A stretch of 53,067 nucleotides of DNA from Carboxydocella thermautotrophica (GTDB lineage: Bacteria; Bacillota; GCA-003054495; Carboxydocellales; Carboxydocellaceae): NCBI GenBank assembly GCA_003054495.1, contig CP028515.1, positions 1 to 53,067 of the forward strand, given 5' to 3'. This document shows, piece by piece, positions 14,377 through 51,752 of the stretch; positions within the stretch are counted from its first letter, which is position 1; every line of letters starts with the position of its first letter. Below the pieces are notes generated by a model, which made no database searches, was not told the origin of the DNA, and saw only the letters and a program-made list of their open reading frames with translations. The position numbers and the translations under genes were made by a program.

Positions 14377-14389
14377 TATAACAACCCCT

Positions 14390-25250: not shown

Positions 25251-25279
25251 TTTTATCCTCCGTTTATGTTATTTGTTTA

Positions 25280-28897: not shown

Positions 28898-28993
28898 CCC
28901 CTTACCTTACTAAGTAGTTGCTATAAAATGTAATAATTGATATATTTTCTACTTCAACCCGTTTTTATCCTTCAAATTTTTTGTTTTTTATAA

Positions 28994-30406: not shown

Positions 30407-30417
30407 GATTCAACCTC

Positions 30418-33125: not shown

Positions 33126-33728
33126 TTAAAAAGTTTTAAACATTAATTTCTTTCTACCAGCAAATAATTTCTCTATCTGGTTCAAAAAAGGCAAAGGGTC
33201 AATCCACCTGCCACCCTCTTTAATCCCAAAATGCAGATGCGGTCCGGTAGATCTTCCGGTGTTGCCGCTGTAACCTATCACCTGACCACTGCTAACCATC
33301 ATCCCTTCTTTAATGCCTGGCGCATATTCGTTGAGATGAGCGTAATAATACCAGCGGCCATCATCTCCCATAATCCCAATAGCAATCCCGCCGTTCCCTT
33401 CAGTGCTCAAGTAGTTTATTACCCCATCCTTTACCGCATACAACGGGCTTCCAATCGGTACCGCCATATCTACCCCTTCATGAAAGTTATCGCCCCTGTC
33501 CTCGCCAAATAGGCTTGTATATCGAAACGGCACTCCCAGGGGAAAGGAGTATCCTCCGGCAAATACCGGATTCCGGGGATTAGTTACATCATAATTGCCA
33601 AAGATAATCGAAATCCCATAAGCCATCATAGCTACGGACAAGATCAGAAAAACCAATAACCAGAGAACCAGCTTAATAATAGCTCTGAAGTTGCGCAACA
33701 CAAAAAGTATAACCTGAGCCGTTTCCAT
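33126..33728 (-). CDS. M23 peptidoglycan peptidase of the transfer system (VirB1-like role)
   Basis: A 200-residue protein with one N-terminal membrane segment (about 20-42) and an external M23/LytM domain: HEGVDMAVPIGSPLY gives the first zinc ligands (His-x3-Asp), YAHLNEYAPG follows, and GPHLHFGI gives the His-x-His ligand. It cleaves peptide cross-links to open the wall for the channel or pilus. It overlaps the VirB4-like gene by one base at the end of the operon. Both zinc motifs are intact. Confidence 0.85.
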   Translation of the reverse strand: METAQVILFVLRNFRAIIKLVLWLLVFLILSVAMMAYGISIIFGNYDVTNPRNPVFAGGYSFPLGVPFRYTSLFGEDRGDNFHEGVDMAVPIGSPLYAVKDGVINYLSTEGNGGIAIGIMGDDGRWYYYAHLNEYAPGIKEGMMVSSGQVIGYSGNTGRSTGPHLHFGIKEGGRWIDPLPFLNQIEKLFAGRKKLMFKTF

Positions 33729-35992
33729 TAGCCTTCAACTCCCAGTTCCCGCAAGCGGTTGGGGTCAGTGACTATCAACCTTTCCAGCTCAGGTGCGGCT
33801 ATTACCTCCACTTTGGCATACTTTCCGCCGGATTTAATCAGCCCTTCTCCCCGGCCGCTGCTGGTAAGGTAATCTTTAGCCTTGGCAGATAAGCTCACTA
33901 TCTCTTTATCAATGGTTTCTATGTTTCTCTTTTTCTGTTCAAACAGCAAAATGCTGTTCGGAATTGTAATCAGCGCCTTGGCAATGGCGTTATCCAAAGC
34001 ATCATCAATGTCCTGGGTAATCGGAATAACCGCCGTGTTATAATGCCTGAAAGACTTAATCATGGCTTGTAGAAACAAGGCAAACGGCTCATACTCCTTC
34101 TTTCCCTGGAAATAGCGGTAGTACTCGTCTACCACAAAAATGGCAGGGTTTTTGTCCTTTGTTAAGATCCCCTCAACTTTAGCCATAATGTTAAATAAAA
34201 ATAGCGGAGCAATAGCTTCCTCCAGATTCCTGGTGCTTATCCCTACCAGCTTTGAAGAGAAATTAATATTGGTCTGGCCATTGAAAAGCACTGAATAAGT
34301 CCCTCTCGTCAGCCTTTCCAGGCTGTCTGCCAGGTCTTTCGACTTTAGCCTGTATAACTCATCCTGCACCTCTGCCGGTAACGGCGGCTCGTTATGCATG
34401 GTCTTGGGATCATCAGTAATGCCTCTTTTTTCAAATGCCCTGTATAAAGCTTTATCCAGGTCATTGGCTTCTTTGGGAGTCAACGGCCTGCCAGCTGCCA
34501 TGGAGTAGAAAGAATGCAGTCTCAATACCGTGGATCGAAGTGAACCAGGCAATTTTATTAATGGCAGGTCATTAGGGTTAATGCAAAAATCCGAACTTAC
34601 AGTAGCATCAATATATTGGCCCCCCATCGCCTCGCAATACCTTTTATGAGCATGTAAAGGCTCCACTATAATCGCCGGAACTCCTTTAAGCAAATAGCGG
34701 TGAATAATAGTGTCTACCGCAAAGGTTTTGCCCGCTCCTGATTCGGCAAGAACAGATAAATGCGGGTTGGTTTGAGAAAACAAATCTATGGTAACTAAAG
34801 CTTTGGTATCCGGATCCACGCCCAGAATTACTCCTTTTTCATCAGCCATGGCCGATGATCTGAACGGAAACATCCTGGCCACTACCTGGGTCGGCAAAAT
34901 CCGTTCCTGACCCCTGGGTTTTAGATAGCAGTCCCTGCCAATTGGCAAAATGCTTTTAAACCCTTCTTCGGGATAAAAAGTGGCAGGGTATGCCTCCATC
35001 ATTAGTCCGTTTAACTTGGTAGTAACCAGTTTTGTAACCCTGTCCAGCTCTTTTAATGTTCTTGCCCTGATACCGATATAGACAGATACGCCAAATAACT
35101 TAAAGCGGCCTGAACCCCTGCCCATGGCCAGAGCATCTTCCCTTTGGTCTAACTGCTCCTCATCAGCTTCACCTTTCATGTATGTGTGCCAGCCCAGCTC
35201 CCGTTTAAGCTTTTGAGCCGCTTTCCTGACATGTTTTTCATAGTGCCCATCCCTGGACGGATGAATATGAAACGAAAAGCAGACCGTTTCTTGTATATCA
35301 AAAAGGCTGTCTATCCAATCAAATCCCACCATATCGGGATAGCCGCTTTCTTCATCCAAATACAAAGTCCTGAAGTAGGTATCATCACACTTGATATAAT
35401 CCCGGCCAATCTCAATTACGCCAGGGGTGCACCGGTCCAGAAAAGTCCGGCCTTTGCCATTCCCCTGGTGCATCTCGATTAAAAGCTTCTCCAGCTTTGC
35501 TCCGGTTAAGCGTTTAGCCTGCAAGCCGTTCTTTTCTAACTCCTTGATCTGATGCTCTGTTTTAGTTTTCAGTTCTGCTCTGGCAATATCAATGGCATCG
35601 TTCTTATGGCCAACAATAACGTAAAACTTTTGGTCCAGGGTATTCTGGGATTCCAGCAACTCCTTGGTAAACTTCAGCTCCGCCAATGCCAGAGGGTTAT
35701 TTATCATGCCGCTTTTGGTATAGGACTCATGCTGAGCAACCAGATATTTGTTAACATTAATCTTTGAAAAGACAACCAACACCTGTGAGTAATAATAAAG
35801 GGAATTTAAGAGCCTGCTGTACCGGCTGATAACACTGGCCTGCTCATCCTCATTCAAAAGCGGAAAATTCAGTGGCGTTACCTCAAGAATTGCCCTGGTT
35901 TCCCCATTTCTGAGCACAAAATAGTCCTCTTTACAATCCACTGCCTCCACAAACTCCTGCGCAGGTTTAACTTTCTTGCCCAACAGACTCAT
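33728..35992 (-). CDS. VirB4-like type IV secretion ATPase
   Basis: A 754-residue protein. The N-terminal part (1-400) matches the VirB4/ConE family. The ATPase domain has Walker A AESGAGKTF (417-424 core) and Walker B IFVVDEYYRYF (near 597), with the downstream LLFEQKKRN region. VirB4 powers substrate transfer and pilus assembly at the cytoplasmic face. It is the best marker of a conjugative channel in the operon. It sits between Tad-type genes upstream and the M23 peptidase downstream. Confidence 0.9.
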   Translation of the reverse strand: MSLLGKKVKPAQEFVEAVDCKEDYFVLRNGETRAILEVTPLNFPLLNEDEQASVISRYSRLLNSLYYYSQVLVVFSKINVNKYLVAQHESYTKSGMINNPLALAELKFTKELLESQNTLDQKFYVIVGHKNDAIDIARAELKTKTEHQIKELEKNGLQAKRLTGAKLEKLLIEMHQGNGKGRTFLDRCTPGVIEIGRDYIKCDDTYFRTLYLDEESGYPDMVGFDWIDSLFDIQETVCFSFHIHPSRDGHYEKHVRKAAQKLKRELGWHTYMKGEADEEQLDQREDALAMGRGSGRFKLFGVSVYIGIRARTLKELDRVTKLVTTKLNGLMMEAYPATFYPEEGFKSILPIGRDCYLKPRGQERILPTQVVARMFPFRSSAMADEKGVILGVDPDTKALVTIDLFSQTNPHLSVLAESGAGKTFAVDTIIHRYLLKGVPAIIVEPLHAHKRYCEAMGGQYIDATVSSDFCINPNDLPLIKLPGSLRSTVLRLHSFYSMAAGRPLTPKEANDLDKALYRAFEKRGITDDPKTMHNEPPLPAEVQDELYRLKSKDLADSLERLTRGTYSVLFNGQTNINFSSKLVGISTRNLEEAIAPLFLFNIMAKVEGILTKDKNPAIFVVDEYYRYFQGKKEYEPFALFLQAMIKSFRHYNTAVIPITQDIDDALDNAIAKALITIPNSILLFEQKKRNIETIDKEIVSLSAKAKDYLTSSGRGEGLIKSGGKYAKVEVIAAPELERLIVTDPNRLRELGVEG

Positions 35993-36013
35993 TAAACTCC
36001 CCCTCCATCCTCT

Positions 36014-36739
36014 CTAATAACCGGCTGCCGCTGCTGCCCCCAGCGTAAAACCAGGAGTATTCACCGGCTTATAATCCCTGGGATTTACTGCAACAAAAAT
36101 TTTGCCGACTTCCGAATATAAAGCGATCTTCTCAGCCTGATCGGGCTTAACCGCAACCACAATAGCGCCAGGCACCTTCTTTTGATTGGTGGCAATAATC
36201 TTGCCTTCTTCATCCTTCTTGACAGCCCCCAGTTGGTTTGCATCCGGGTCCCGTACGTCTATGACAGGAATATGCTGCAGAAAAAGCTTGGCTGAGCTTG
36301 GTCCATTGTTTGACTTCAAAATAACGATTAAATCCACATAATCGCCCTTTTTTACAGTCCCGCCGGCAGATTTGGTCAAATCCGTGGGAATAGCCACTAT
36401 CCGATCTTCCGGCTTTATCGTATATAAATAACCCTGGGGAACCTCGTTAATATCGCTGATCTTGCCTGGCAGAATCAGGTCCCCCGGGATCAGTTTAGTG
36501 GTAGTGTATTTGCCTATTAGCTGTTTGCTGTCCTTGATTACATTAGCATCCAGGCCATTAGCACCCACCGTTTTTGTGGTAAGCATATCCTGAGTAATTT
36601 GAGTATAGGCCGGTATCTCCTGTTTAACGGTGACAACCTCAACCTCTTTTAAGTTGGCTTTTACGTATCTATTGGCACCGAAAACCCCTATTAATGCCAA
36701 CAACAATCCCCCTAAGGCAACCAATATCCTTTTATTCAA
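36014..36739 (-). CDS. cpaB: CpaB/RcpC-like SAF-domain pilus assembly protein
   Basis: A 241-residue protein. It has an N-terminal membrane anchor (LVALGGLLLALIGVFGANRY), then a SAF domain (EVVTVKQEIPAYTQITQDML), a PEDRIVAIPTD segment and KGDYVDLIVILK, the order typical of Flp pilus CpaB/RcpC. In Gram-negatives it stabilises the secretin; here, in a monoderm without a secretin, it probably guides the pilus through the wall. TTG start after GGGGGG. It lies between the large surface protein and the VirB4-like gene. Confidence 0.85.
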   Translation of the reverse strand: MNKRILVALGGLLLALIGVFGANRYVKANLKEVEVVTVKQEIPAYTQITQDMLTTKTVGANGLDANVIKDSKQLIGKYTTTKLIPGDLILPGKISDINEVPQGYLYTIKPEDRIVAIPTDLTKSAGGTVKKGDYVDLIVILKSNNGPSSAKLFLQHIPVIDVRDPDANQLGAVKKDEEGKIIATNQKKVPGAIVVAVKPDQAEKIALYSEVGKIFVAVNPRDYKPVNTPGFTLGAAAAAGY

Positions 36740-36751
36740 GGTTTCGCCCCC

Positions 36752-39052
36752 CTACTGCGTAATTCTGCTGCCTACATCATCGTAAATACCGCCCTCAACT
36801 ATCACCACCACAGAAGTCTTAGCCGTAAATTCCCCGTTATCTCCGGCACCCTCGGCCACAATCTTGGTTATAAATTCACCATCGGGAGTGTCTTTGGGTA
36901 TATATTTCTTGCGGAGCTTCTGCGGTGACCTGGGGTTAGGCGGCAACTGCCAGGTATTAGAGGCCGGTCTTCCTGGAGTGCTTCTTTCCAGCTCCACGGA
37001 ATTGCCATCGGCAAAATAAGCTATTACCCTTTGCGGACCTGGGCAGGGTCGGCTTTTTCTAACTCCATCCTCATACCAGACATAATCATCCGTCCAGGTA
37101 TTGACCGTAAGGCTAAACCCCCATCCTGCCCTGGTTTTAGCAGGACTAACCGAAGCCGATATATGCAACTGGCCTCCTTCCTGCCTTTCCATGCTGTCAT
37201 TGATATACACCGGTTCCGATACATAGTTGTTGTTATAATTAGTTTCCGGAATAGTTCTGTCAGGATTGACCGCTGCGGCTATCGTAATTCTTCCTTTTGC
37301 GGCAGGAGCTTTCCAGGAGAAATGTACCGTAGTCGAGGCATTAGGACCGAGGCTTGCAATGACGCGCCTGGTGCCGGGAATTTCCGCCTTGCCCTTATAG
37401 AATTTGACCACCACGTTATTTACAGTTACAGCCAGGTTGTTTTTAACTACAACCGAACCGTTGTAGGTGTTATTGACAAAGAAAGGCGTTGTACCCGGAT
37501 TTAGATTGGTAACAGTTAAGTCAGTCGATTGATAGAGTTCAACCCGCTTGGTGTTGTTTGCCCAGTTCAAGTCCTTATTGAGAATCGGTTTTTGCGGCCA
37601 GATTTTAGCGATTAAAGTGCTTTTTCCGTCCTGGCCATACCAGACAAACGGCAAAGTCATGGTTTCCCCGGGATTAAGGGTAATTGTTTTTCCATCTACC
37701 CCTGAAACTGGCCAACCGTTATGGGTCAAGCCTAATTTAACTTCTGCTGGTTCCGGAAAATTCTCTGCCAGCCCGTAAGTTACCGTTCCATGATACTCCT
37801 TGCCCTTCTCCGGGTTATTGGTACCGGGGTTAAGACTTTGCACATAGGCATCAGGGATAGGCTTTACCTTAATCGTTGCGCTGGCAACATTATCGGCATA
37901 TTCAAGCCCTGTTTCCCCTTCGTAAAGATAGCCGTAACCAGGCCAGGCATTTATCCCGGCCATTAAACTTTTGGATTCCGGCTGGGCAGTCCAGCGGAAC
38001 GTTGCCACTATTTCTGCCTTATTTGCATTAAACTTAACTGTCTGATACTTATACCCCGCTGGCGCTCCCCAGGGATAGGCACTGATTAGGCCGCCAATTG
38101 CCCCGGGTCCTGACTTGTAAGCCAGATTGGCCTTATAATAACTCTCTTTCACTTGATGAGCTGCACCGATAAAGATGGGAATATCTGCGGGAGGTCTGGT
38201 AATCCAGGCATTATCAGCATTGATTCCGAAGGTTACAGTGGCAGTGTAAGTGGTAAAGGGCTCAGCGACGAAAACTCTCTTTCCGGTCTCAGGGTCCTGT
38301 TCTGCCGGAGTGCCGGGATCGAAGTCTTTTACGTACAAATTGGGAACCCATTTAACAAATACCGATTCTGGAGCAATGGGAATGCTTCTGTAAAGAATGG
38401 TGCCATTTTCTTTATGCCAGGCCCGTCCCCACCCCCAGCCCCAGAAGGTAGGGGGTTGCAGGACATGCACATATCTCTCCCATTCTACGTTCTCATCCCC
38501 GCGAAATTCAGTGGAATGCATCAGTTTTAAGCCCCACCAGATGTTGCGTCTCAGCTCTGGTTTGCCATCCAGTTTTTCATTCCAGACCATCGTTTCGCCT
38601 CTATTTTTCATCCATTTAGCAATATCTTCTCTTTGCCATGGAGCTGGAAGCCAGTTATTCTGTTCCAGGTATTGATGGACAGGCTCGACATCATTGGGAA
38701 ACCGGATATTAGGCAGGTTTTCCCCCACATCATTAACTCCTGTATATCGGTACTCGCCGTTATCGCCTTTATCCCCGTGCGGTCCCCCGTAAAATAAGAG
38801 ATGGGTATTATTGAACTCCGGATATTGCTCCATATTGATGGCAAGTTTCAAAGCAGGGTTATAACTGACAAAATAGTCCTTGCCAAATTTCTTCATTTCC
38901 AGATATCTGTTATCATCAGCCATAGCTGCATCTTTGCTCAAAGGCGGGGTTTTGGGCGGGACATAATCTTTTGTAAGCTCAGCCCCTGAATACCCTGTAA
39001 AACCAGAAAATAAGGCTAATACAATGAGAAATACCGTTATTCTCTTCCGCAA
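36752..39052 (-). CDS. Large secreted protein with CARDB-like repeats, possible pilus-tip or adhesin
   Basis: A 766-residue protein. It has a signal peptide (about 1-24) and an aromatic-rich N-terminal region (PTFWGWGWGRAWHKENGTIL). Three or more beta-sandwich units of CARDB type follow, such as DLTVTNLNPGTTPFFVNNTY with the SLGPNASTTVHFSWKAP and IPETNYNNNYVSEP segments. It would lie outside the membrane. Its place in the middle of the pilus genes suggests a surface adhesin or pilus-associated tip component. The TTG start directly follows the upstream stop, so translation is coupled. No specific ligand can be named. Confidence 0.7.
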   Translation of the reverse strand: MRKRITVFLIVLALFSGFTGYSGAELTKDYVPPKTPPLSKDAAMADDNRYLEMKKFGKDYFVSYNPALKLAINMEQYPEFNNTHLLFYGGPHGDKGDNGEYRYTGVNDVGENLPNIRFPNDVEPVHQYLEQNNWLPAPWQREDIAKWMKNRGETMVWNEKLDGKPELRRNIWWGLKLMHSTEFRGDENVEWERYVHVLQPPTFWGWGWGRAWHKENGTILYRSIPIAPESVFVKWVPNLYVKDFDPGTPAEQDPETGKRVFVAEPFTTYTATVTFGINADNAWITRPPADIPIFIGAAHQVKESYYKANLAYKSGPGAIGGLISAYPWGAPAGYKYQTVKFNANKAEIVATFRWTAQPESKSLMAGINAWPGYGYLYEGETGLEYADNVASATIKVKPIPDAYVQSLNPGTNNPEKGKEYHGTVTYGLAENFPEPAEVKLGLTHNGWPVSGVDGKTITLNPGETMTLPFVWYGQDGKSTLIAKIWPQKPILNKDLNWANNTKRVELYQSTDLTVTNLNPGTTPFFVNNTYNGSVVVKNNLAVTVNNVVVKFYKGKAEIPGTRRVIASLGPNASTTVHFSWKAPAAKGRITIAAAVNPDRTIPETNYNNNYVSEPVYINDSMERQEGGQLHISASVSPAKTRAGWGFSLTVNTWTDDYVWYEDGVRKSRPCPGPQRVIAYFADGNSVELERSTPGRPASNTWQLPPNPRSPQKLRKKYIPKDTPDGEFITKIVAEGAGDNGEFTAKTSVVVIVEGGIYDDVGSRITQ

Positions 39053-39796
39053 CTACTTCACCCCCGGCAACCATACTATAACCTGGACCGTATAGCCGCC
39101 AGCATTAGATGCGACCCTTATTTTCTGGTTGTTAATTATCCAGTATTTTTCAGGAACCTCTGACCAACGATCTTTCTTTAAACGAACATGGTCGGTTATT
39201 TCCCTGGCCGCTTTCTCACCAAACTTGCTGGCCAGGATGTTATATAAGTCCGTGAATTGTTTTTCCAAATCATCCTCTACAGAAATAGCAATATTGATAT
39301 CCACGTTGTTAACGTTATTAGGCGGATAGAGTTCAACTGTTAAATCCGTTTTTTCCGGAAGAGTATAGCCATTATCCATGCTAACCTTTACGGTATAGGT
39401 TTTGTTATCCCACGTAACCCGTGCCCCTAACGCCTCGGTAATAAACCTCAACGGCACCATTGTTCTTTTGTTTTTCAGTATGGCTTTGGTGTCAAAAGTC
39501 TTGGCCTTGCCATTAACCATGGCTTTGCTCTCGCCTATTTTCAGCTTAATGGTATTTGCCCGATGCTTTATTGTCACTGTCTGGGTACGGCCATCCCAGT
39601 CCACCGTTGCTCCCAAAGCTTCACTGACAAACCGGACCGGCACCAGGGTGCGGGCTTTATTATCCAGAAACGGCTTCTGGTCCGGAAAGCTTATTTTCCT
39701 CCCATTGACGTAAACCATAATCTCAGGCTGTGCCAGCGCACTTGTGGTTATAAAAAACGAAAGCACCACAGCCATAACGCTTATAAACCTTGTCAT
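39053..39796 (-). CDS. Secreted protein with two copper-amine-oxidase-N domains
   Basis: A 247-residue protein with a signal peptide (to about residue 22) and two tandem stalk-like repeats: ARTLVPVRFVSEALGATVDW with QTVTIKHRANTIKLKIGES, and KRTMVPLRFITEALGARVTW. These domains are common in Clostridia secreted proteins and are thought to attach to the cell wall. The last 80 residues are different and helical (DDLEKQFTDLYNILASKFGE). It probably supports the pilus at the surface. It lies between the prepilin peptidase and the large surface protein. Confidence 0.8.
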   Translation of the reverse strand: MTRFISVMAVVLSFFITTSALAQPEIMVYVNGRKISFPDQKPFLDNKARTLVPVRFVSEALGATVDWDGRTQTVTIKHRANTIKLKIGESKAMVNGKAKTFDTKAILKNKRTMVPLRFITEALGARVTWDNKTYTVKVSMDNGYTLPEKTDLTVELYPPNNVNNVDINIAISVEDDLEKQFTDLYNILASKFGEKAAREITDHVRLKKDRWSEVPEKYWIINNQKIRVASNAGGYTVQVIVWLPGVK

Positions 39797-39811
39797 CTCC
39801 TAACCCCCACT

Positions 39812-40300
39812 TCAAATTGCCAATATAACCGCTCCCAGCGCTAACGCTACCCCATAGGGTATGCCGGGATTGGCCTCGCTTTCTTGAGCTATATCAGCCC
39901 ACCGCCTCCGTCCGGTTAAGTAATAGAGCATCTGCTTCAGGGTTTCCCAGAAAAGCTTTTTCTTGATTAAAACAGTTACTGCCATAACTCCGCCGATTAA
40001 AGCACCCAGCACTGCAGTCCCTAAAACAAATTCCGGACCGGCCACCGCTCCTATTGCGGCCATTAATTTCAGGTCACCGGCACCAAGCCCGCCTAAAAGA
40101 AAGGGCACTAAAAATATCCCTGCACCTGTAATAAAGCCATATAAAGAGTGCCAGAAACCAGCCTGGCCATTATAAACACTGTTGAGCGCAAATCCGGCCA
40201 GCATAGCTGGAAAAACAAACCTGTTACGGATTTTTCGGTACTTCAAATCCGTGTAAATAGTAGTTGCCGCCAAAAAAATCAGGGTTAACTTAAATAACAG
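39812..40300 (-). CDS. tadV: Prepilin peptidase (TadV/CpaA, A24 family)
   Basis: About 162 residues, wholly membrane-embedded. Catalytic Asp residues: TIYTDLKYRKI near the start and the family signature GLGAGDLKL (GxGD). It cleaves the leader of Flp and TadE-like proteins. The usual N-terminus of this family (LFKLTLIFLAATTIYTDLKY) is encoded only if translation begins at a CTG at 40300, which has GGAGAGGG seven bases ahead; the TTG at 40273 lacks a ribosome site. I therefore favour the rare CTG start. Confidence 0.85.
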   Translation of the reverse strand: MLFKLTLIFLAATTIYTDLKYRKIRNRFVFPAMLAGFALNSVYNGQAGFWHSLYGFITGAGIFLVPFLLGGLGAGDLKLMAAIGAVAGPEFVLGTAVLGALIGGVMAVTVLIKKKLFWETLKQMLYYLTGRRRWADIAQESEANPGIPYGVALALGAVILAI

Positions 40301-40317
40301 GACTTACCCTCTCCTTC

Positions 40318-40345
40318 CTAAAACCCGGGATGTAAAAACATTCCG
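40318..40345 (-). terminator. Internal hairpin in the transfer operon
   Basis: AACCCGG and CCGGGTT frame a short loop at the gap between the TadE-like genes and tadV. It may attenuate transcription or set RNA end points within the operon. Confidence 0.4.
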
Positions 40346-40371
40346 GGTTCATTTCTCACCTGCGGGGAAAA

Positions 40372-40836
40372 TCAGCGGAAAACTTCCTCAACCGCTTCCC
40401 CTTTTACGATCATGTCTTCATCACCAAGAAAGTGCATGATAGTGGTTTTGATCGGCACTCTGACCACCACATACATGGCCGGCGGCCCCGATTCCCTAAT
40501 ATCCAAAGTCTCAATCCGGATAGGACCGTTAATAGTGGAATCAGCATTGCCTGGAGCCAGATTGTCATTAAGGCCCATATTTTCTTTGAACAGCCGGTAA
40601 AAATTATCCCTGGCCGTATTGACGTCAATTTTTATTTCAGTGCTTTCGTCCAGCAAACTTTCTTCAATTACCGCTGAATCTATGGCCGAAGTAGCCGCAG
40701 CATCCAGGCTGGTTTGAACCGCCCGATTGACTATATACATTGCTCCCAGGTCTGTAATTAATCCTAAAATCAAAAAAAATACCGGCAATAACAAGGCTGT
40801 CCAGATGAGGACATCACCCTTCTGCTCTTTTAGCAT
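40372..40836 (-). CDS. TadE/TadG-like pseudopilin
   Basis: A 154-residue protein starting MLKEQKGDVLIWTALLLPVF, a type IV prepilin-like processing site (EQKG then a hydrophobic helix) that TadV should cleave. The remainder is a periplasm/wall-side domain with VTARDNF-like NTARDNFYRLF. TadE and TadG proteins are minor pilins needed for pilus assembly. It is next to a second TadE-like gene and the Flp pilin; all three share the E-x-KG-x2-LI signature. Confidence 0.8.
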   Translation of the reverse strand: MLKEQKGDVLIWTALLLPVFFLILGLITDLGAMYIVNRAVQTSLDAAATSAIDSAVIEESLLDESTEIKIDVNTARDNFYRLFKENMGLNDNLAPGNADSTINGPIRIETLDIRESGPPAMYVVVRVPIKTTIMHFLGDEDMIVKGEAVEEVFR

Positions 40837-40848
40837 TCAAAAACCCCC

Positions 40849-41274
40849 TTACGGCCGGAAGTATTTTTCACTCATAGCTACCCCCTTGGCCGTGAGGTTA
40901 ATATTAAACCCTATATTCGACCCCTTGGCGCCAAACAGGACAAAACGGTAAGGATATGTGAATTCCACCTCCACCATTTCGTTTCTTTGCACCGGCTCCC
41001 AGGTGGCGCGAATAGTTACCTCAGCCGGGTCTATACCAGCAGTCCTCAGCTGATCCTGAACCCAGGCCAGGATGGTATCATTCATGCCGCCATTTTTGGC
41101 CATTGCCCTGATGGTGGTGCCCTTAATATCATGGAGGGCATCCCAGTATGAGTTAACTATCCCCAGCTCAAAGATTCCGGTTATTAACGCTAAAAGAACC
41201 GGCATTACTAATGCCATCTGGATCAGACTTACTCCCTTTTGCTCTTTTACCAGTCTATTTAATACCCGTTTCAA
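40849..41274 (-). CDS. TadE-like pseudopilin
   Basis: A 141-residue protein, with KEQKGVSLIQMALVMPVLLA as the prepilin processing site and membrane helix and a beta-rich C-terminal domain (EVTIRATWEPVQRNEMVEVE). It belongs to the TadE family of minor pilins processed by TadV. It lies directly upstream of the other pseudopilin and downstream of the Flp pilin, in operon order. Confidence 0.8.
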   Translation of the reverse strand: MKRVLNRLVKEQKGVSLIQMALVMPVLLALITGIFELGIVNSYWDALHDIKGTTIRAMAKNGGMNDTILAWVQDQLRTAGIDPAEVTIRATWEPVQRNEMVEVEFTYPYRFVLFGAKGSNIGFNINLTAKGVAMSEKYFRP

Positions 41275-41288
41275 GGACAGTCACACCC

Positions 41289-41501
41289 TTACGGCGTAGG
41301 TCTGGTCCCGTTAAACTTGGCGCGAATCACTTCATAATAGGCGGTAATATCCGTTCCTAAGGCGCTCAGCACCGCAATAGAGGCTAGGACAATCAGGGCA
41401 GTTATAATGGCCATTTGAATGAGTTCTGTCCCTTTTTCCTCTTTGCCAATGCGGCTGACCAGATTTTGTCCTTTCACATACAAACTTAACAATCTTTTCA
41501 T
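41289..41501 (-). CDS. flp: Flp-type major pilin
   Basis: About 70 residues. GKEEKGTELIQMAIITALIV matches the Flp prepilin pattern: a short basic leader, a Gly cleavage site, then a hydrophobic helix with an early Glu, and a small tail. It would be the main pilus subunit after TadV cleavage. The ATG at 41501 has GGGAGGAG ahead; an upstream ATG at 41522 would place that ribosome site inside the coding region, so it is not used. Confidence 0.85.
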   Translation of the reverse strand: MKRLLSLYVKGQNLVSRIGKEEKGTELIQMAIITALIVLASIAVLSALGTDITAYYEVIRAKFNGTRPTP

Positions 41502-41546
41502 TTTTTTCTCCTCCCACTTCAAAATAACTTACATAACCGAAGTCCT

Positions 41547-42482
41547 CTATTTCAGGAAACCTCCCCTTACTGCAAACATGGCGTACAGAGGCGGTGTCCC
41601 GAGAATCAAGAGAATGTTGATAAATAACATCACCCCCACTAAAGCCAGGTAAACCGGCCTTTTCTTTATTTCCCGTTTCAGGGTATTCTTTGTTCTCTCC
41701 CGGAGCAGAGCGCTCTGGGTTATAAAGATCTGTTTGAAATCAATGCCTGACTTAATCCCCTGCTCCAGCATGGTAACGATGTATTTAACATCAGCCAGGC
41801 CGCATCTGTCGGCAAATCTCCTTAGAGCCTTTATTTCATCATTGAACACTTCCAAATCGGTTTTGAGTTTCTGGACATTTTCTCTTAAGCCAGGACCTGT
41901 AATGGGGATGATCTGGGTAACGGCCTGCCTCAGGGTCAAACCCGCTGAAAGGTAAGTCCTGATGGCATCTATGAAATCCGGAAGTTCGGCGCTCATCAGC
42001 AACTGCCTGCTCTTTGCCCTGGCCTTAACAATCTCCCCGGGGCTGAAATAAGCGATAAATAAAGCCAGGATAAAAGTAATGAAGGTTGTGTTTGTCGGCC
42101 GGAGCAGATACAGAAATCCAAAAAAACCCCCTATTGCTAAAACAGCTAAATACTTAATGGCAATAAACTGGACCGGTGTCATCACCTGGTTAGGGATTAA
42201 CCTTAAATCGGCCTGTTCCAGCAGCAGTTCCAGCTTTCGCCTGCTTCCCTCCTTCAGGCTTACTTTGGAGACTATAAACACATACAAGGGAGCGACTAAC
42301 CTAATCAGTAACGGCAATTCCTCCAGCTCCCTTTCAGCTTTAGTTCGTCCTATGTTCTGCACCAGCTGTATCTGTCTTAACGCATGATTGCTGGGCGGTT
42401 TAAGCAGCAGGGATAAGATACTGGTGGCCAATATTAATAGCCCCGTAAAAAGCATTAAGTTATAAAACACCATCTGCTCCAT
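41547..42482 (-). CDS. tadC: Tad pilus platform protein TadC
   Basis: A 311-residue GspF-domain membrane protein. It has N-terminal helices and a cytoplasmic GspF region (FIDAIRTYLSAGLTLRQAVT, later EQGIKSGIDFKQIFITQSAL) with a C-terminal hydrophobic helix. With TadB it forms the inner platform on which the TadA ATPase acts. It follows tadB by 4 bp in the operon. Confidence 0.85.
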   Translation of the reverse strand: MEQMVFYNLMLFTGLLILATSILSLLLKPPSNHALRQIQLVQNIGRTKAERELEELPLLIRLVAPLYVFIVSKVSLKEGSRRKLELLLEQADLRLIPNQVMTPVQFIAIKYLAVLAIGGFFGFLYLLRPTNTTFITFILALFIAYFSPGEIVKARAKSRQLLMSAELPDFIDAIRTYLSAGLTLRQAVTQIIPITGPGLRENVQKLKTDLEVFNDEIKALRRFADRCGLADVKYIVTMLEQGIKSGIDFKQIFITQSALLRERTKNTLKREIKKRPVYLALVGVMLFINILLILGTPPLYAMFAVRGGFLK

Positions 42483-42486
42483 CCCC

Positions 42487-43416
42487 TCAGACTGGCTTGC
42501 TAATTTTCTCTATCAGCCACAAACTGCCTATGCAGATTACAGCTACAATGGTGGTTACAACCTTGCCGGTCATGGTGTCTGTAAGAATCATGGCAAAATC
42601 AGGCCGCATGAGCTTGTAAAGCAAAAAGATCAGCGGCGTGCCGGAGAAAAGTATCCAGCCCTGAAATTTAAGGCCCGAAAGCTCGGTAAACAGTTCATCT
42701 CTAAGGGATTTCCTCTCCCTGATGGTATCAGGTATCTGCAACATTAGTTCCCTGGTTTCTCCGCCAATTTCTGTGGCCAACAGGGCTATCTTTACCCAGA
42801 AATCAAAGTCTTTGTTATTGAGCCTGACAGATAAGCTCATTAGAGCCTCTGCCAGGGTCATCCCGGCCACTTTCATGTCTGCTAAAGTCTTTTGGAACTC
42901 CTCTTTGAGAGGTGAAGGCATACTGGGTATCGCTTCCTCAATGGCCTTCTCCAGACTGCCTATTGTCCCGTACACATTCCCGATCTGGGTAAGCACCGCC
43001 TCCATGTGCTCGTCAATTTCCTCCTGCTTTCTCTTGGCCATGTATTCCAGAATAATAAAGGGCAACTTATATCCGATGTACAAAGCTACCAGGGTTATCA
43101 AAGGATTCTTGAAGGTAGCCTGAGCAATATACCCGGCCCCCATAATCGCAAGGATGTTGAGGAAAATGAACTCATTAAAGCGAATATTAACCCCCGTTCG
43201 CAATAAAAGCCGCTCTGCAGTAAGCCTGTAATTCTTGCTGTAGTCTTTCGCTGCAAATTCCTCTACAAATTTCAGTTTGGCCAGTTTGTCCAGGTCATTT
43301 AGATAATCGGGCCGGACAGCCTGCCTAAGCCTCAGCCAATCGCTTTTTTCAATCTTCAAGAAGGCGGCTGTAAACAGTAACATCCCCAAAAAGATGGGTA
43401 AATAGATCTGGATCAT
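42487..43416 (-). CDS. tadB: Tad pilus platform protein TadB
   Basis: A 309-residue GspF-domain protein. N-terminal hydrophobic segments, then GspF signature areas (EEAIPSMPSPLKEEFQKTLA and LIWLATEIGG-like KIALLATEIGGETRELMLQI), and C-terminal membrane helices. It pairs with TadC as the platform. The ATG overlaps the tadA stop (ATGA), so its expression is coupled to tadA and may be affected by the tadA frameshift. Confidence 0.85.
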   Translation of the reverse strand: MIQIYLPIFLGMLLFTAAFLKIEKSDWLRLRQAVRPDYLNDLDKLAKLKFVEEFAAKDYSKNYRLTAERLLLRTGVNIRFNEFIFLNILAIMGAGYIAQATFKNPLITLVALYIGYKLPFIILEYMAKRKQEEIDEHMEAVLTQIGNVYGTIGSLEKAIEEAIPSMPSPLKEEFQKTLADMKVAGMTLAEALMSLSVRLNNKDFDFWVKIALLATEIGGETRELMLQIPDTIRERKSLRDELFTELSGLKFQGWILFSGTPLIFLLYKLMRPDFAMILTDTMTGKVVTTIVAVICIGSLWLIEKISKPV

Positions 43417-44838
43417 CCCGCCACCCCTTCTTCCCTGACAAACCTGTCAATTTTCTCCTTAGGGGCACCGGCAAGCATCAACTTTTCAATTTTCCTGGGC
43501 GAAAGTCCGCCCACTTGTTTGAAGAATCCCTGGATTTTGCCATCAATCACTCCTGTAACAATAAACTCAAATATCGGCTTTATAATCGGCTGTTTTCTCT
43601 CATGGTCATAACCATCCACCTGGGCAATCTCAACTATCTTGCGGCTGCCGTCAATCATCCGCCTCTGATTGATGATATAATCCACTGTGTTGCTGATAAC
43701 TTCCCTGGCAATCTGATACTCCAAACCGCCGCGCTGGAGCATGATCGCCAGCCTGGTTATGGCATCATCGGTCCCATTGGCGTGGAAGGTTGAGCCCGAT
43801 CCTTCATGGCCTGTATTCATGGCCTGTATTCATGGCCTCAATCATCTCCAGTGCTTCCGGTCCCCGCACTTCTCCCACTATGATCCGGTCCGGTCTTTGT
43901 CTTAAGGCATTTTTCAGCAGGTCATAGAGAGTAACCGGATTTTGCCTGGATTTTCTGGCTTCATGGCTGATCACATGCCGGTTCGGATTGGCCGCCTTTA
44001 ATCGAAGTTCTTCCACATCCTCAATAGTTACCAGCCGTTCATTGGCCGGGATATAATTAGTCAAAAATTTCAGCGTGCTGGTTTTGCCGGAACCGGTGCC
44101 CCCAATGACAAAAAAGTTCCCCTTGTACCGGACAATCAGTTCAAGAAACTCCAGCATCTCTTCCGAACAAGTCCCCAGGTCAAGCAATTCCTGGGCGGTA
44201 AAATCTATCTTCACGAATTTCCGGATCGTCAGATTCGTCCCTTGCAAGGCAATCGGCTGCAGCACAGCATTTACCCGGCTGCCTCCCGGCAGTTTAGCGT
44301 CAACGTAAGGTTCTGAGAGGTCAATATTCCGCCCAATGGGAGCCAGGATTTTTCTGATGATATTGACCAGCTGCTCATCTGACTGAAACTTAATATCCGT
44401 AAGCTCCAGTTTGCCGTTCTTCTCCACATACACTTCCTGATAACTATTCACCATTATCTCGCTGACTTCAGGGTCCTTTAACGGCGGATCCAGGGGACCG
44501 AATCCGCAAATCTCTGTCTGGCAGTATTCAATCAGCTCATCTAAGGCCATGCTGGGAAGGGAAATCTGGTTTTCATTGATATACCCCTGTATAATCCCCT
44601 TAACCCGGTCCTTGACCTCCGCATCCAGCACCGACTGCCCAAAAACATTGCCGTGATAATCCGCCAGATAAACCTTGATCTCTTCTACAATCCGCCTGGC
44701 CTCCTGATCCACAACTCCGGCGGCTGTATCCTCTTGCTTTAAGCCGTAGGAAACCGTCTGTTTGGACCTCTCCTGTTGCGACTGGTAAATCAGCTCATTC
44801 AGGTCAACCCTGCTCAACTGGCTCTCCCCCTCAACCAT
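43413..44838 (-). pseudogene. tadA: Tad pilus ATPase TadA/CpaF, split by a 13 bp tandem duplication
   Basis: There are two overlapping frames. The first (44838 or, better, the TTG at 44817, to 43804) holds Walker A GGTGSGKTS (246-254 of the longer form), TIEDVEEL and Walker B IIVGEVRG. It ends in a foreign GHEYRP after EAMNT. The second frame (from 43820) resumes with [16 protein letters not shown], the His-box region, and runs to 43413. The break is a tandem copy of CATGGCCTGTATT (43805-43817 and 43818-43830). Removing one unit gives a continuous protein of about 470 residues, the normal TadA size. As written, the ATPase lacks its C-terminal His-box and is probably inactive; slippage could restore it. 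Confidence 0.9.
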
Positions 44839-46334
44839 TTCTTGAGAAAAGCAAAAAAGGTCTCTTTTTCCGGCGGTTTGGGGCCTGCTATATAGGGGTA
44901 AATATCAGCCGCAAGTTTCACCAGGGCATCTCTTATCTGCTGGGTAGCCGGAGTGTTGTACAGCATAATTGGTTTTGAATCAAAAATGCTCTCCGTGACC
45001 TTTTCGTAGGCATTGGGAATTACGTTATCTATCATGATGCCAAGGGATTTCTCCACTATTTCCTTGTTAACCTTATTGCTGGGAAAATCTTTGTTAAGGA
45101 CATAGCAAAACTTGTTCTCGGCAATATTGATCTTTTTCAGCAGGTCCAGGTATTTTTTCGTGTTGAAGGTAACGGTATGGTCAAGGGAGGTTACTACTAA
45201 CACCTTGTTAGCTGTTTTCAGTGCCTCGTAGGTGGTCAAAAAGGTGGGATCTGTTGCCGTATCGATGAGAATTACATCGTAATGTTCCCGCAAGGTGTTT
45301 ATTATCCTGGCCATGGACCCGGCAGCAAAACCGGTGTAGTTCTCAGGCCGGCATATCTCCGACCCTGAAATTACATATAGGTTTGGTATTTTAGGATGCT
45401 GCAGCAAATAGTCCTTGATCTTCAGGGGGTTAGTCTCCTTGAGGGCCTTTTCCAGGGTCTGATTCATGTCCATCAGGTTTAAGTGAATCCCTACCGAAAG
45501 GTTTAATATATCCCCGTCAATAATGACCGTTTTAAAGCCAGCCTGGGCATATATAACGCCTAAATTTACCGTGATAAAGGTTTTGCCAATGCCCGGTTTG
45601 GCAGACCAGACCGCAGCCACCAGTTGCCGGGCAATTTTAACCCTGGTTTCTGCTGGTTGTTTTTCCTGTTCATCTTGTTTTGCTTTATCTGCTCCCAGGC
45701 TTTCTTCTTTGATCTGCGACAATACTTCAGCCTTAATTCGCGAAATTAGTTCTTCTTCATCCTGCAGCTCTGGCCGCTTGATGTTTTGCTCAATCCATTT
45801 CTCGGCTTCTGCTCTGGCATTATTGCTCTGTTCCAAAGTTTCCTTGCTCTTTCCGTTCTCAACATTCCAGATTTGTTCTAATTCTGCCAGCATTTCATTG
45901 TGCACTTCTTCGGTTATCGGGATTAAATCATCCTGAATTACTGCAGAATTGTCACTTTCCTGCTCCTCCGGTTCCTGTTTTTTAATGGGTTCCTTTTTCT
46001 TTCTGGTTTTGCTGATTGACGGCTTCTCAGGGGGTGTTGCCAGTTTATCTTTTACCGCCTCCTTGACAGCTTCTTCAGTCACAGGCTTTACCAGATCTTC
46101 ACCAATCTTGATTAGCGGCATTTTCCGCCTGTTGACCAGCTTTACTACTGAATCTGCATCTTTTAAGTCAATATCAATTGCCACCAGGTCGAAAGCATTT
46201 TCTTTATCCTGGAGCAAAGTCTTGGCCGCCAGTGCCGAGCTTATTTTCATCGGCTCAATTCCCAGAGCTTCCTGAAAAATTTTGAAGATGCTTCTGTCCT
46301 GGGTTATCACCACATACTTTTCCACTGCTCTCAC
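44814..46334 (-). CDS. tadZ: TadZ/CpaE-like ATPase
   Basis: A 506-residue protein. It has an N-terminal receiver-like domain (about 1-85), a long charged linker (100-225), then a MinD/ParA-type ATPase with a deviant Walker A SAKPGIGKTF (244-253), VIIDGDIL and ILIDTATDPTF. TadZ marks the cell site where the Tad machine assembles. The stop overlaps the tadA start (TTGA), giving tight coupling. It is longer than usual because of the linker. Confidence 0.85.
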   Translation of the reverse strand: MRAVEKYVVITQDRSIFKIFQEALGIEPMKISSALAAKTLLQDKENAFDLVAIDIDLKDADSVVKLVNRRKMPLIKIGEDLVKPVTEEAVKEAVKDKLATPPEKPSISKTRKKKEPIKKQEPEEQESDNSAVIQDDLIPITEEVHNEMLAELEQIWNVENGKSKETLEQSNNARAEAEKWIEQNIKRPELQDEEELISRIKAEVLSQIKEESLGADKAKQDEQEKQPAETRVKIARQLVAAVWSAKPGIGKTFITVNLGVIYAQAGFKTVIIDGDILNLSVGIHLNLMDMNQTLEKALKETNPLKIKDYLLQHPKIPNLYVISGSEICRPENYTGFAAGSMARIINTLREHYDVILIDTATDPTFLTTYEALKTANKVLVVTSLDHTVTFNTKKYLDLLKKINIAENKFCYVLNKDFPSNKVNKEIVEKSLGIMIDNVIPNAYEKVTESIFDSKPIMLYNTPATQQIRDALVKLAADIYPYIAGPKPPEKETFFAFLKKWLRGRAS

Positions 46335-46990
46335 CCCCTTAGCTCTTTTTGCTTAAAGCTTTTTTCGATGAAACTCTCCAGGGTTAATAACAACCTGGAA
46401 GCGTCTGCATACTCTAAGCTTTTATCCCGTTTCACTTCCTCTTGCCACTCATAAAAAAAATGAACGTTAAGTATCCCTTTTATCTGTTCCTCAATCTCAT
46501 CCAGCTCAAAATCCGCCTCAAAAGTGGAAAAAACCTCATCCTCAGTTTCCTCTTCCGGCTGGAGCGGTTCAGCTTTTTGGGAGAAATATTTCTCAAATAA
46601 ACCGCCGAAAAACGGAATTGTGCACAGCAACTGCTCCCACCAAACCCGGTTTTGCTTGGAAGGCTTTTGCGGCAAGGTAAATTTATAGTCTTTCGCCAAA
46701 ACCAGTTTGTTGCAGTTCCAGGTTTTGAGCTTGAACAGAAGGAAATCGAAAAACCAGCGGTCAAAGTTCCTGCCCTTAAACCTGTGAAAGGTGAAAATAA
46801 ACCCGATAAACAGAATCACACCGAAAACAAAGGTATTGAAAATCAGACCCAGAGGCAGTCTCGTGCTCAAGAGAGATAAGCCCAGGAATATGCTCAAATA
46901 TAAAGTTTCTCTTTTGGTAAACAGCCCTACAAAACTTTCCCGTATTTTCGGCTGTTTCGGCACATCTACCACATCATCAAACAGTTCCAT
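46331..46990 (-). CDS. PrgI/VirB3-like membrane protein
   Basis: A 219-residue protein with two N-terminal membrane helices (about 33-75) and a charged soluble C-terminus that includes an acidic stretch (EETEDEVFSTFEADFELDEI). The order and topology match the PrgI family of Gram-positive conjugation systems, which fill the VirB3 place beside VirB4. It overlaps both neighbours. The family call rests on topology and position, not on a clear motif. Confidence 0.6.
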   Translation of the reverse strand: MELFDDVVDVPKQPKIRESFVGLFTKRETLYLSIFLGLSLLSTRLPLGLIFNTFVFGVILFIGFIFTFHRFKGRNFDRWFFDFLLFKLKTWNCNKLVLAKDYKFTLPQKPSKQNRVWWEQLLCTIPFFGGLFEKYFSQKAEPLQPEEETEDEVFSTFEADFELDEIEEQIKGILNVHFFYEWQEEVKRDKSLEYADASRLLLTLESFIEKSFKQKELRG

Positions 46991-48002
46991 TATGGTTCAC
47001 CTTCTTAGGCGCACTGAAGAATTTTTTCACGTTGGTAACCATGCTGACGGTATTCCTGACTCTGCCTGATGCGCCGCTCATCAGTGCCAGATTGATCAGC
47101 ATCCCGGGGATGACATACATCAGGACAACCATAGCCAGAGACATAAACATCTCATAAGTTCCGCCTTCTATCTGCATCTTGAAAAAAGCCTTGATAATAC
47201 CAGCATGGATGAATTTCAGGAGCAACAAACCCAGCAATATATTAAAAGCAACCCTGGCTATTTTTTCGGTTTGAGGTATAACCCAGGCCACGATAAAAAA
47301 GGGGGAATAGGCTATCAAGTACCACAGAGCGGCATCCCGGATGGCATAGATGACTCCCAGTATCAGTGTTAAAATGCCAATGAGCAAAAACATCAGTGCC
47401 AGGCCAATGCCGGAGGTTCCGGAATCCGTTAAACCCGTTCCCGGCAGAAAAGCTGACCAGACATTGAAATCCTTAACCGTTACCCCCTGCCCCATAATCC
47501 ACCGGGTTATTCCGCTGGAAAACTCCAGCATCCATTCGGCAATTTCCAGGGATAAAGAAGCGGCAACAAAAGCGGCCACAGTTCTGGTAGCGATCTCCCT
47601 CAAGCTGAATAGGTCCAAATCCAGCAATTCACGCAAAGGTGCTGAAGCTGTCCCGATCAAGAAGAAGATCAGCAACACTCCATAACTGACTTTAAGGTTA
47701 TCGCTCCAGGTCGCCTTTAATCCCTGCTGTTTGGTGAAATCAGTATCGGAAAACAGGGTTTCGCCTAACACATCCATAGTTTTGTTAATCAGGTCGCTGG
47801 CCAGGTTGTTAAAAAAACCTTGTATGCCTTCTGTAAAAAGCTGTTTGACTGTGCCTGCAGGGTCACTTATTACATCAGCAACACCACTGCTGTTTTCCGG
47901 CTGTACAGCAGAATCCTGTGGCCCAGCCTGCTCTGCCAGCACCGGGGTAACTGAAGCTGATAGCCAAAATAACACTACTGCCAATAACCAAAACCTTTTC
48001 AT
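46977..48002 (-). CDS. VirB6/TrbL-like polytopic membrane protein
   Basis: A 341-residue protein with a signal-like N-terminus (MKRFWLLAVVLFWLSASVTP) and about six membrane segments, including YGVLLIFFLIGTASAPLREL and LMFLLIGILTLILGVIYAI, with conserved-looking aromatic and Gly positions. VirB6/TrbL proteins form the membrane part of the conjugation channel. It is followed by the PrgI-like gene and preceded by the pilin-like gene, as in type IV secretion operons. Confidence 0.75.
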   Translation of the reverse strand: MKRFWLLAVVLFWLSASVTPVLAEQAGPQDSAVQPENSSGVADVISDPAGTVKQLFTEGIQGFFNNLASDLINKTMDVLGETLFSDTDFTKQQGLKATWSDNLKVSYGVLLIFFLIGTASAPLRELLDLDLFSLREIATRTVAAFVAASLSLEIAEWMLEFSSGITRWIMGQGVTVKDFNVWSAFLPGTGLTDSGTSGIGLALMFLLIGILTLILGVIYAIRDAALWYLIAYSPFFIVAWVIPQTEKIARVAFNILLGLLLLKFIHAGIIKAFFKMQIEGGTYEMFMSLAMVVLMYVIPGMLINLALMSGASGRVRNTVSMVTNVKKFFSAPKKVNHNGTV

Positions 48003-48012
48003 CTCGAATCCC

Positions 48013-48312
48013 CTATTGCAAAAACCACTGATAGATCTGCACGCCTACGGCAAGCACCAGGCCGGAAACTACCGCCATGGTTGCTCCTTTTTTGCCTTTG
48101 GCAATAACACTTTCGTCGCCCAGCGACAGGGAAGATATAACCCAGCTGGCCAGGAACCCCAGCATTGCAATCCCTATTCCCAATCCCTTAATTTTGCTGG
48201 CAGTCTTATTGATAATCCCGCCTGGGTCATCCCAGGTTGCCGCCAGGGCAATGCTTTCAAAGCCAAAAACAAGCAAAAAAGCAATTCCTAATATCAGCAA
48301 TACTTTTTTCAC
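48013..48312 (-). CDS. VirB2/TrbC-like conjugative pilin
   Basis: A 99-residue protein with a signal peptide (to the SIALA site near residue 24) and two hydrophobic helices separated by a short basic loop (GDESVIAKGKKG). This is the size and layout of VirB2/TrbC pilins. It is separate from the Flp-type pilin later in the operon, so the operon encodes two different kinds of pilin. GTG start overlapping the upstream stop (GTGA). Confidence 0.7.
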   Translation of the reverse strand: MKKVLLILGIAFLLVFGFESIALAATWDDPGGIINKTASKIKGLGIGIAMLGFLASWVISSLSLGDESVIAKGKKGATMAVVSGLVLAVGVQIYQWFLQ

Positions 48313-48545
48313 TTCGACTCCCCCTTTTTCCCCAGGATATAGGTGTTATACAAAAACTCTATCACTTCAAGACCCAACGGCCCTTCCATCCTGATGCCAT
48401 TTTTGCGAAACCCTTCAAAGCTTTCAGTGGTCACATAGTATCTCAGGTCCAGAATCAGCTCATTTTTTCTGTTGATGCCTTCCTGGATAACAATGTCTAC
48501 TGAGTTCGATTTTTTGAATCTCTTTACCTCAGTAACAACCTGCAC
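48309..48545 (-). CDS. First gene of the transfer operon, small basic protein
   Basis: About 78 residues from a GTG at 48545 with AGGAGG nine bases ahead; an ATG at 48566 would include the ribosome site and is less likely. Beta-rich (VDIVIQEGINRKNELILDLR, YYVTTESFEGFRKNGIRMEG). The middle resembles the PC4-like single-strand DNA-binding fold, but this is weak. As the first gene after the promoter it could regulate the operon or bind transferred DNA. Confidence 0.5.
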   Translation of the reverse strand: MQVVTEVKRFKKSNSVDIVIQEGINRKNELILDLRYYVTTESFEGFRKNGIRMEGPLGLEVIEFLYNTYILGKKGESK

Positions 48546-48574
48546 AATTCCCGGCCTCCTCCCCATACGGTTTG

Positions 48575-48632
48575 TATATGCTTTTTATATGCTTTATATA
48601 TACATTGTATATATTATGGTAATCAATGTCAA
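48575..48632 (-). promoter_or_regulatory. Promoter and operator of the transfer operon
   Basis: Leftward TTGACA (48632-48627), a 17 bp gap, and TACAAT (48609-48604). A palindrome, TATATACATTGTATATA (48597-48613), covers the -10. Two TATATGCTTT direct repeats (48575-48584, 48586-48595) lie 11 bp apart just downstream, one helical turn, the spacing used by RHH repressors. The divergent RHH gene starts 64 bp from the -35. Confidence 0.75.
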
Positions 48633-51499: not shown

Positions 51500-51752
51500 A
51501 ACTTGAAAATCGAGTAGAATCTGATTCCTACTCCTCTCGGCAGCCTTCGGTAGCAAGGACTTCGCTTTGTATTGCAAGCTCATCCAACTGCCGCTAGCCT
51601 CTTATGTGGTTTCTGTTCGTCGGGCCGGAGGTTTGCCGCCGACTTCCTTCAGATTCCACCTCACGGTGGACACCCTTGTCTTAAGCTACGGCTACTGCTA
51701 CCTTCGCCGTTCGGGACTTCCACCCTATAGACAACGCCCATGCCGGGCGCAC
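51500..51752 (-). mobile_element. Group II intron 5' remnant (domain I)
   Basis: Read leftward from 51752, the sequence begins GTGCGCCCGGCATGGGCG, the consensus start of bacterial group II introns. GGTGGAAGTCC follows near 51726, and GTCGGCGGCAAACC and GACGAACAGAAACC further on, features of domain I. There is no reverse-transcriptase gene and no domain V/VI, so it is a truncated remnant. The right end is cut by the partner gene's terminator region, the left end is unclear. Confidence 0.7.

Follow-up and report, generated by a model that had tools for sequence, protein, structure and literature searches.

Little is understood of how monoderm bacteria that have no conjugative pili locate recipient cells and keep hold of them. 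The 53,067-bp circular plasmid of Carboxydocella thermautotrophica 41T (CP028515), which forms a whole contig and is referred to here as the window, raises the question of why a single leftward string of genes (48566-33126) should join a conjugative type IV secretion system (T4SS) to the pilus genes of a tight adherence (Tad) system, a combination that offers a testable answer. The strain, a thermophilic carboxydotroph, has a chromosome of 2,690,058 bases and this one circular plasmid, the copy number of which is estimated at 3-5 per cell (PMC6085454). The genome paper, in the few lines given to the plasmid, regards it as possibly a selfish mobile element because of its IS1182 element and restriction system, and leaves conjugation, pilus and secretion unmentioned (PMC6085454). 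Judging from gene content and order in related genomes, the composite of T4SS and Tad genes is almost certainly a real class, the two modules appearing repeatedly co-encoded, co-oriented and travelling with conjugative elements. We consider it rather likely that the composite serves conjugation in a monoderm host and that its Tad pilus is dedicated to mating contact; that the pilus acts in mating, that DNA is the substrate and that the genes are co-transcribed is what we infer from these data.

Gene content of the plasmid operon

The string contains 17 genes in 18 open frames, all on the reverse strand, in the order small basic protein, pilin, VirB6 and PrgI, followed by TadZ, TadA (split), TadB, TadC, Flp, two TadE-like proteins, an A24 peptidase, a stalk protein, a CARDB protein and CpaB, and then by VirB4 and an M23 peptidase, the Tad block separating VirB6 and PrgI from VirB4. 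An earlier note on this DNA, made from the letters alone, had described these genes, their order, strand and coordinates, with the Tad set nested inside the T4SS set, and Pfam, NCBIfam and profile matches agree with it, the pilin and PrgI matches being weak and TadA being split.

The T4SS part comprises the VirB4 ATPase (33728-35992; NCBIfam CD1110 family NF045971, E 1e-61, below the curated cut-off; PF19044), whose Walker A and B columns are conserved in alignment A1, a membrane-anchored M23 peptidase with a putative VirB1-like role (33126-33728; PF01551, about 6e-26), a VirB6/TrbL-like channel protein (46977-48002; TrbL_4, PF19597, 1e-5, below the gathering score), a PrgI/VirB3-like protein with a long C-terminal extension (46331-46990; PF12666, 0.003, below the gathering score), and a candidate VirB2-like pilin of 99 aa (48013-48312; PF18895, E 0.0014, below the gathering score), which precedes VirB6 as it does in the chromosomal copy described below. 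VirB6 also matches an independent VirB6 profile seeded on a Parageobacillus plasmid protein (1e-16, hhalign probability 96%). The PrgI profile match is 1e-4, with a weak hhalign match spanning 26 residues only, and the assignment is supported by position. The small basic protein of 85 aa encoded by the first gene (48309-48566) has no Pfam or NCBIfam match. Away from the operon, a separate gene pair on the same strand encodes a VirD4-type coupling protein (18671-20317; TrwB_AAD_bind 2e-10, TraG-D_C 7e-10) and, overlapping it, a replication-relaxation-like protein (20314-20937; PF13814, 0.005, weak), a candidate DNA-processing partner whose predicted structure is not usable (predicted local distance difference test score, pLDDT, 44). 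Replic_Relax-like genes are likewise annotated near VirD4 on many related plasmids without a recognized relaxase. Of the components by which a Gram-positive conjugative T4SS is recognized, the plasmid encodes VirB4 with Walker motifs, VirB6- and PrgI/VirB3-like proteins (PrgI by a weak match), a cell-wall hydrolase, and VirD4 on the same element.

The Tad part comprises, besides TadA, a TadZ/CpaE-like ATPase (44814-46334; AAA_31, 7e-14), the platform proteins TadB (42487-43416; T2SSF, 2e-8) and TadC (41547-42482; T2SSF, 1e-5), a Flp-type prepilin (G^TELIQMAI; 41289-41522), a TadE-like pseudopilin of the DUF4320 family (40849-41274; PF14208, 6e-10; TadE, 3e-7), a second TadE/TadF-like pseudopilin (40372-40836; PF13400, 2e-6), a TadV-like A24 prepilin peptidase (39812-40273; PF01478, 3e-18), a secreted stalk-domain protein (39053-39796; Cu_amine_oxidN1, PF07833, 6e-40), a large surface protein with CARDB and Athe_2463 domains (36752-39052; PF07705, 1e-11; NF047340, 2e-16, above the cut-off), and the CpaB/RcpC pilus assembly protein (36014-36739; TIGR03177, 4e-32, above the cut-off). 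Flp is assigned from its position and type IV prepilin-like N-terminus, with no Pfam match, and a Flp profile is common to the plasmid, chromosomal and same-order loci. Of the hallmarks of a Tad/Flp system, TadB/TadC, TadZ, CpaB, prepilin peptidase and TadE/TadF pseudopilins are present, with Flp recognized by motif and position only.

The genes are spaced by -25 to +24 nt, with the single exception of 98 nt before the prepilin peptidase. Of the promoter-like sites in the region, the best (TTGACA-17-TACAAT, 48604-48632, reverse strand) is an 11/12 consensus match only. Its end lies 38 bp upstream of the first gene, and an imperfect 11-bp repeat of 3.8 copies (48571-48612), a possible regulator site, overlaps it. 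Because of this close spacing, the one promoter-like site before the first gene, and a frequency of terminator-like sites within the string that is at chance level, it is reasonable to regard the 17 genes as a single operon; the single operon and promoter described earlier draw their support from the spacing and this site only.

Linkage of Tad and VirB4 across the phylum

Is this neighbourhood peculiar to one plasmid? Tad loci marked by DUF4320 (PF14208) were sought in 398 genomes of the phylum (Bacillota), and VirB4 was detected with a profile built from alignment A1 (genome-level threshold E 1e-25; linkage window 25 kb, same contig). DUF4320 was found in 38 of the 398 genomes, at 50 loci, 24 of which have VirB4 within 25 kb (23 of these 24 on the same strand), while several other loci lie on short contigs. 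As a control, 60 Tad loci were picked by best CpaB matches in genomes without DUF4320, and none has VirB4 within 25 kb, though 17 of the control genomes have VirB4 somewhere. The difference is significant by Fisher's test (p about 1e-10, or 2e-9 with one locus per genome, kinship still being included in the test), and a chance neighbourhood of Tad and T4SS is rejected by the control. Tad and T4SS genes lie on one strand in all 18 retrieved loci that have both, a few of which overlap or are near-copies. Genome contigs with TadA carry mostly ordinary Tad loci, with VirB4 within 10 kb in 1/80, the metagenome-assembled genome (MAG) SKS3.bin89 (G003; the same-order genome discussed below). Viral contigs gave no match to VirB4 patterns.

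The linked TadA proteins were compared with 20 free-standing ones in a quick maximum-likelihood tree. A branch with support 100 sets all 20 free-standing TadA, with no linked TadA among them, apart from the rest; the 20 include TadA from genomes in which linked copies occur as well, such as 41T's own. The plasmid TadA does not belong with this free-standing lineage of the phylum, and groups with the chromosomal T4SS-linked TadA of 41T and that of the same-order genome (support 99). Relations among the linked TadA are unsure because several rows are long branches. Over 25 linked loci, VirB4 and TadA distances correlate (rho 0.43; as high in 0/2000 permutations), a result to which the common ancestry of the hosts may contribute. 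The tree rejects the idea that a housekeeping Tad operon entered a T4SS late.

Gene orders on related plasmids

The nested order of the plasmid (VirB6/PrgI, Tad, VirB4) recurs in at least three loci of two other genera (L092, L097, L099), while other loci have the T4SS before the Tad genes or the Tad genes before the T4SS. For example, Parageobacillus thermoglucosidasius NZ_CP063416 and Paenibacillus larvae pPLP1 encode, all in the same direction, MobQ, VirD4, CpaB/SAF, TadA-B-C, pseudopilins, TrbL/VirB6, VirB4 and a hydrolase, and further plasmids with the composite set are found in Cytobacillus gottheilii, P. polymyxa (pSC2), Geobacillus (pGspE55-1), Aneurinibacillus, Alicyclobacillus and Brevibacillus brevis. 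MOB-suite (PLSDB) types the majority of the related plasmids inspected as 'non-mobilizable', which suggests that plasmid mobility is underestimated. The checks proposed in the earlier note, conserved co-occurrence of VirB4 with Tad genes and phylogeny of the components, thus give a pairing that persists in plasmids and integrated elements of Bacillota while gene order varies, and a TadA tree that sets linked copies apart; the unlinked insertion in relatives that the note had named as its refuter is not what these loci look like, the pairing surviving changes of order in a manner unlike random insertion.

An alternative is that the Tad genes are ordinary adhesion or colonization cargo, co-expressed with the T4SS as a surface project and dispensable for DNA transfer. 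Tad pili elsewhere serve adhesion (PMC5696575), some DUF4320-type Tad loci are in genomes without VirB4, and on some plasmids (Alicyclobacillus mengziensis, B. brevis) the two modules lie apart. However, free-standing Tad loci have VirB4 nearby in none of the 60 control cases and their TadA forms a separate clade, and linked Tad genes inside or beside a T4SS occur in many unrelated elements, more than expected of cargo. We regard this alternative as unlikely.

Several Bacillales plasmids (L271, L272, L274, L275 and L276) encode Replic_Relax and a VirD4-like coupling protein together with a Tad cluster; VirB4 was not found within about 20 kb, and they possibly represent a different Tad-dependent transfer type. 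Such pairing of VirD4 with Tad also favors a chimeric machine, in which TadA would take the place of VirB11, which monoderm T4SSs lack, and the Tad platform or pilus would form a physical part of the DNA conduit. VirB11 profiles do match TadA (3e-50), and in PAPI-1, where the type IV pilus is essential, VirB4 and VirD4 are the sole clear components of a T4SS (PMC12857230). Against it, a full pilus set stands beside a full channel set, which simple replacement of VirB11 would not need, and many monoderm T4SSs work without VirB11. A chimera of this kind seems to us quite improbable. We think no better of the chances of its stronger form, a phylum-wide class in which the Tad pilus would be obligate, TadA would stand for VirB11, the pilus base would be joined to the VirB4/VirB6 channel, and extension and retraction would be coupled to DNA transfer.

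Chromosomal copies and movement between families

The 41T chromosome carries a second composite, with the T4SS followed by the Tad genes on one strand (G000:C1:1913000-1923700; L073, L133), beside a carbon monoxide (CO) dehydrogenase-like gene. Its order is pilin-VirB6-PrgI-VirB4-M23-CpaB-TadZ-TadA-TadB-TadC-Flp-TadE-TadE. It is 99.86% identical over 19.8 kb to the conspecific genome G001, which lacks the plasmid's VirB4, and the same arrangement is found, split over two contigs, in the same-order MAG. The 41T chromosome also has a Tad locus that stands free and follows the usual order (L141). The chromosomal composite is perhaps domesticated, because it is present in the conspecific genome too. 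No coupling protein or relaxase was detected near it.

Elsewhere, one composite element has moved between families. Collinear blocks of about 34 kb are 99.2-100% identical between two genomes (G071:C1:744551-778399 and G090:C1:183421-220769), and 98.4-99.4% identical in a third (G175), the three being labelled as three different families. The shared block starts inside the 3' end of a transfer-messenger RNA (tmRNA) gene in G071, and inside a tRNA-Asp gene in G090. Just outside it, G071 encodes a MobP3 relaxase (422 bits; cut-off 150) and a CD1115-type VirD4, with serine recombinases further on. The near-identity in three families, the different RNA-gene starts and the nearby MobP3, VirD4 and recombinase genes indicate that the module travels with conjugative elements; as far as these genomes tell, composite modules move between families with conjugation genes, which by itself does not prove a requirement for Tad. 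The composite as a curiosity of one plasmid is rejected by the chromosomal, conspecific, same-order, plasmid and integrated relatives.

The chromosomal copies also bear on whether the composite is mainly for protein secretion, DNA release or DNA uptake, the chromosomal copy being its domesticated form. In both conspecific genomes the operon lies among chromosomal genes, beside the CO dehydrogenase-like gene, and a single-sequence search found no VirD4 homolog in the 41T genome outside the plasmid. Against this, relaxases and VirD4 are found in relatives on plasmids and in integrated elements, one of which has moved between families, and we consider the explanation very doubtful.

A split TadA gene in the plasmid

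The earlier note had taken the plasmid TadA/CpaF motor ATPase to be intact, which is not the case. The gene is disrupted into two frames, an N-terminal part with Walker A and B (43804-44838; T2SSE, 6e-45; TIGR03819, 4e-63, below the cut-off) and a C-terminal part out of frame with it (43413-43820), which aligns with the C-terminus of the intact TadA proteins at L073 and L075. The frame changes shortly after Walker B, at a 13-bp tandem repeat of 2.8 perfect copies (43803-43838, reverse strand), and the N-terminal part, 64% identical to TadA of the same-order genome, ends in a short foreign tail. The chromosomal copy and the same-order genome have an open TadA frame. A simple sequencing error is an unlikely cause, because the genome was sequenced at 247x average coverage and the plasmid at 3.5 times more (PMC6085454). 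Since TadA is frame-shifted in the plasmid copy, the plasmid Tad pilus is probably off, or switched by slippage at the repeat, or aided in trans by the T4SS-linked TadA of the chromosome, which belongs to the same clade.

Proposed mechanism

In the reading that we favor, a conjugation apparatus with its own Tad pilus of the DUF4320 lineage, the T4SS core would consist of the pilin, VirB6, PrgI/VirB3, VirB4 and M23 hydrolase together with the plasmid VirD4, a minimal set of the monoderm type. The A24 peptidase would mature the Flp and TadE subunits, from which TadA, TadB and TadC would build a surface pilus. The pilus, with the stalk and CARDB proteins, would touch recipient cells and draw them in; the M23 enzyme would open the wall, and VirB4, VirB6, PrgI and VirD4 would pass the DNA. 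Mating-pair contact through Tad had been suggested in the earlier note; it is still an interpretation, strengthened by elements with relaxase and VirD4, one of which has moved between families.

Several observations weigh against this reading. Eleven of the 38 DUF4320-bearing genomes are without a VirB4 match at E 1e-25, and a T4SS does not accompany the DUF4320-type Tad lineage in every case. On the A. mengziensis and B. brevis plasmids the modules form separate blocks at least 16 kb apart. The VirD4 region is only 76% identical between G071 and G090, and therefore has a separate history. In 41T itself, the plasmid TadA is disrupted, and a second homolog of the plasmid VirD4 is missing from the chromosome in the single-sequence search. 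Neither a MOB-family relaxase nor VirB8, the fold of which is hard to see by sequence, was recognized among the window open reading frames (ORFs) searched, which are part of all ORFs.

Other genes of the plasmid

The window also contains a Gabija defence pair identified by PADLOC (12646-16474; GajB 3e-198, GajA 3e-260), Type I restriction-modification genes (23715-31002) with a second methyltransferase-like gene (28994-30406) and a second specificity-like gene, and a helix-turn-helix and GTPase protein (4732-6966) with a weak match to a LeoBC dynamin-like model (2e-16). A group II intron domain (D1-D4-3, Rfam RF02001, 85.6 bits; 51519-51670, reverse strand) has no evident reverse transcriptase ORF adjoining. 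Secreted nuclease-like proteins carrying a short Cys-rich motif (YHYPxC...CKVC) at the C-terminus are encoded at 8757-9581 and in the chromosome (G000:C1:1930007), and the motif also occurs alone at 8444-8734.

Comparison with known systems

The recurrence of the same T4SS and Tad mixture on many plasmids and mobile elements of the phylum suggests a widespread, barely described mating mode of Gram-positive-type bacteria, for which DUF4320 provides a handle to find composite elements. A T4SS review does not mention Tad pili, TadA, Flp or tight adherence (PMC12857230). In the open-licence papers searched, DUF4320 gave no match and the composite class is not described, with the exception of a remark on Cutibacterium acnes plasmids; an earlier description beyond these papers is possible. 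In the C. acnes linear plasmids (p15.1.R1 type), a tad locus lies beside FtsK-like, VirB4-family and TcpC-like genes, and its authors suggested a conjugative plasmid (PMC5696575). These plasmids differ in belonging to an actinomycete and in having an FtsK/TraB-like translocase, and they were described as having neighbouring loci, not as a conserved composite class.

With Gram-positive conjugative T4SSs of the CD1110/CD1115 type, in many Clostridia of core order D4-B6-PrgI-B4-M23, the composite shares VirB4, VirB6, PrgI, the M23 hydrolase and VirD4, and differs in its built-in Tad operon and in a VirB8 that was not recognized among the window ORFs searched. With Tad/Flp (type IVc) systems it shares TadZ, TadA (in two frames on the plasmid), TadB, TadC, Flp, TadE-like pseudopilins, prepilin peptidase and CpaB, and differs in the lack of a secretin (expected in a monoderm), the DUF4320 pseudopilin and the separate TadA lineage, as well as in order, TadZ-A-B-C-Flp-TadE in the composite compared with Flp-A24-TadE-CpaB-TadZ-A-B-C in free-standing loci. 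Precedents for pilus-assisted conjugation are found in Gram-negative elements: in IncI plasmids (R64) a type IV thin pilus helps transfer in liquid, and PAPI-1 requires its type IV pilus for transfer, in addition to VirB4 and VirD4 (PMC12857230). In both, the pilus acts together with T4SS ATPases (PMC12857230), and the likeness to the composite is one of working only. In these systems the pili are Gram-negative type IV pili, that of IncI coming from a separate gene cluster, whereas the composite carries Tad genes inside a monoderm T4SS operon.

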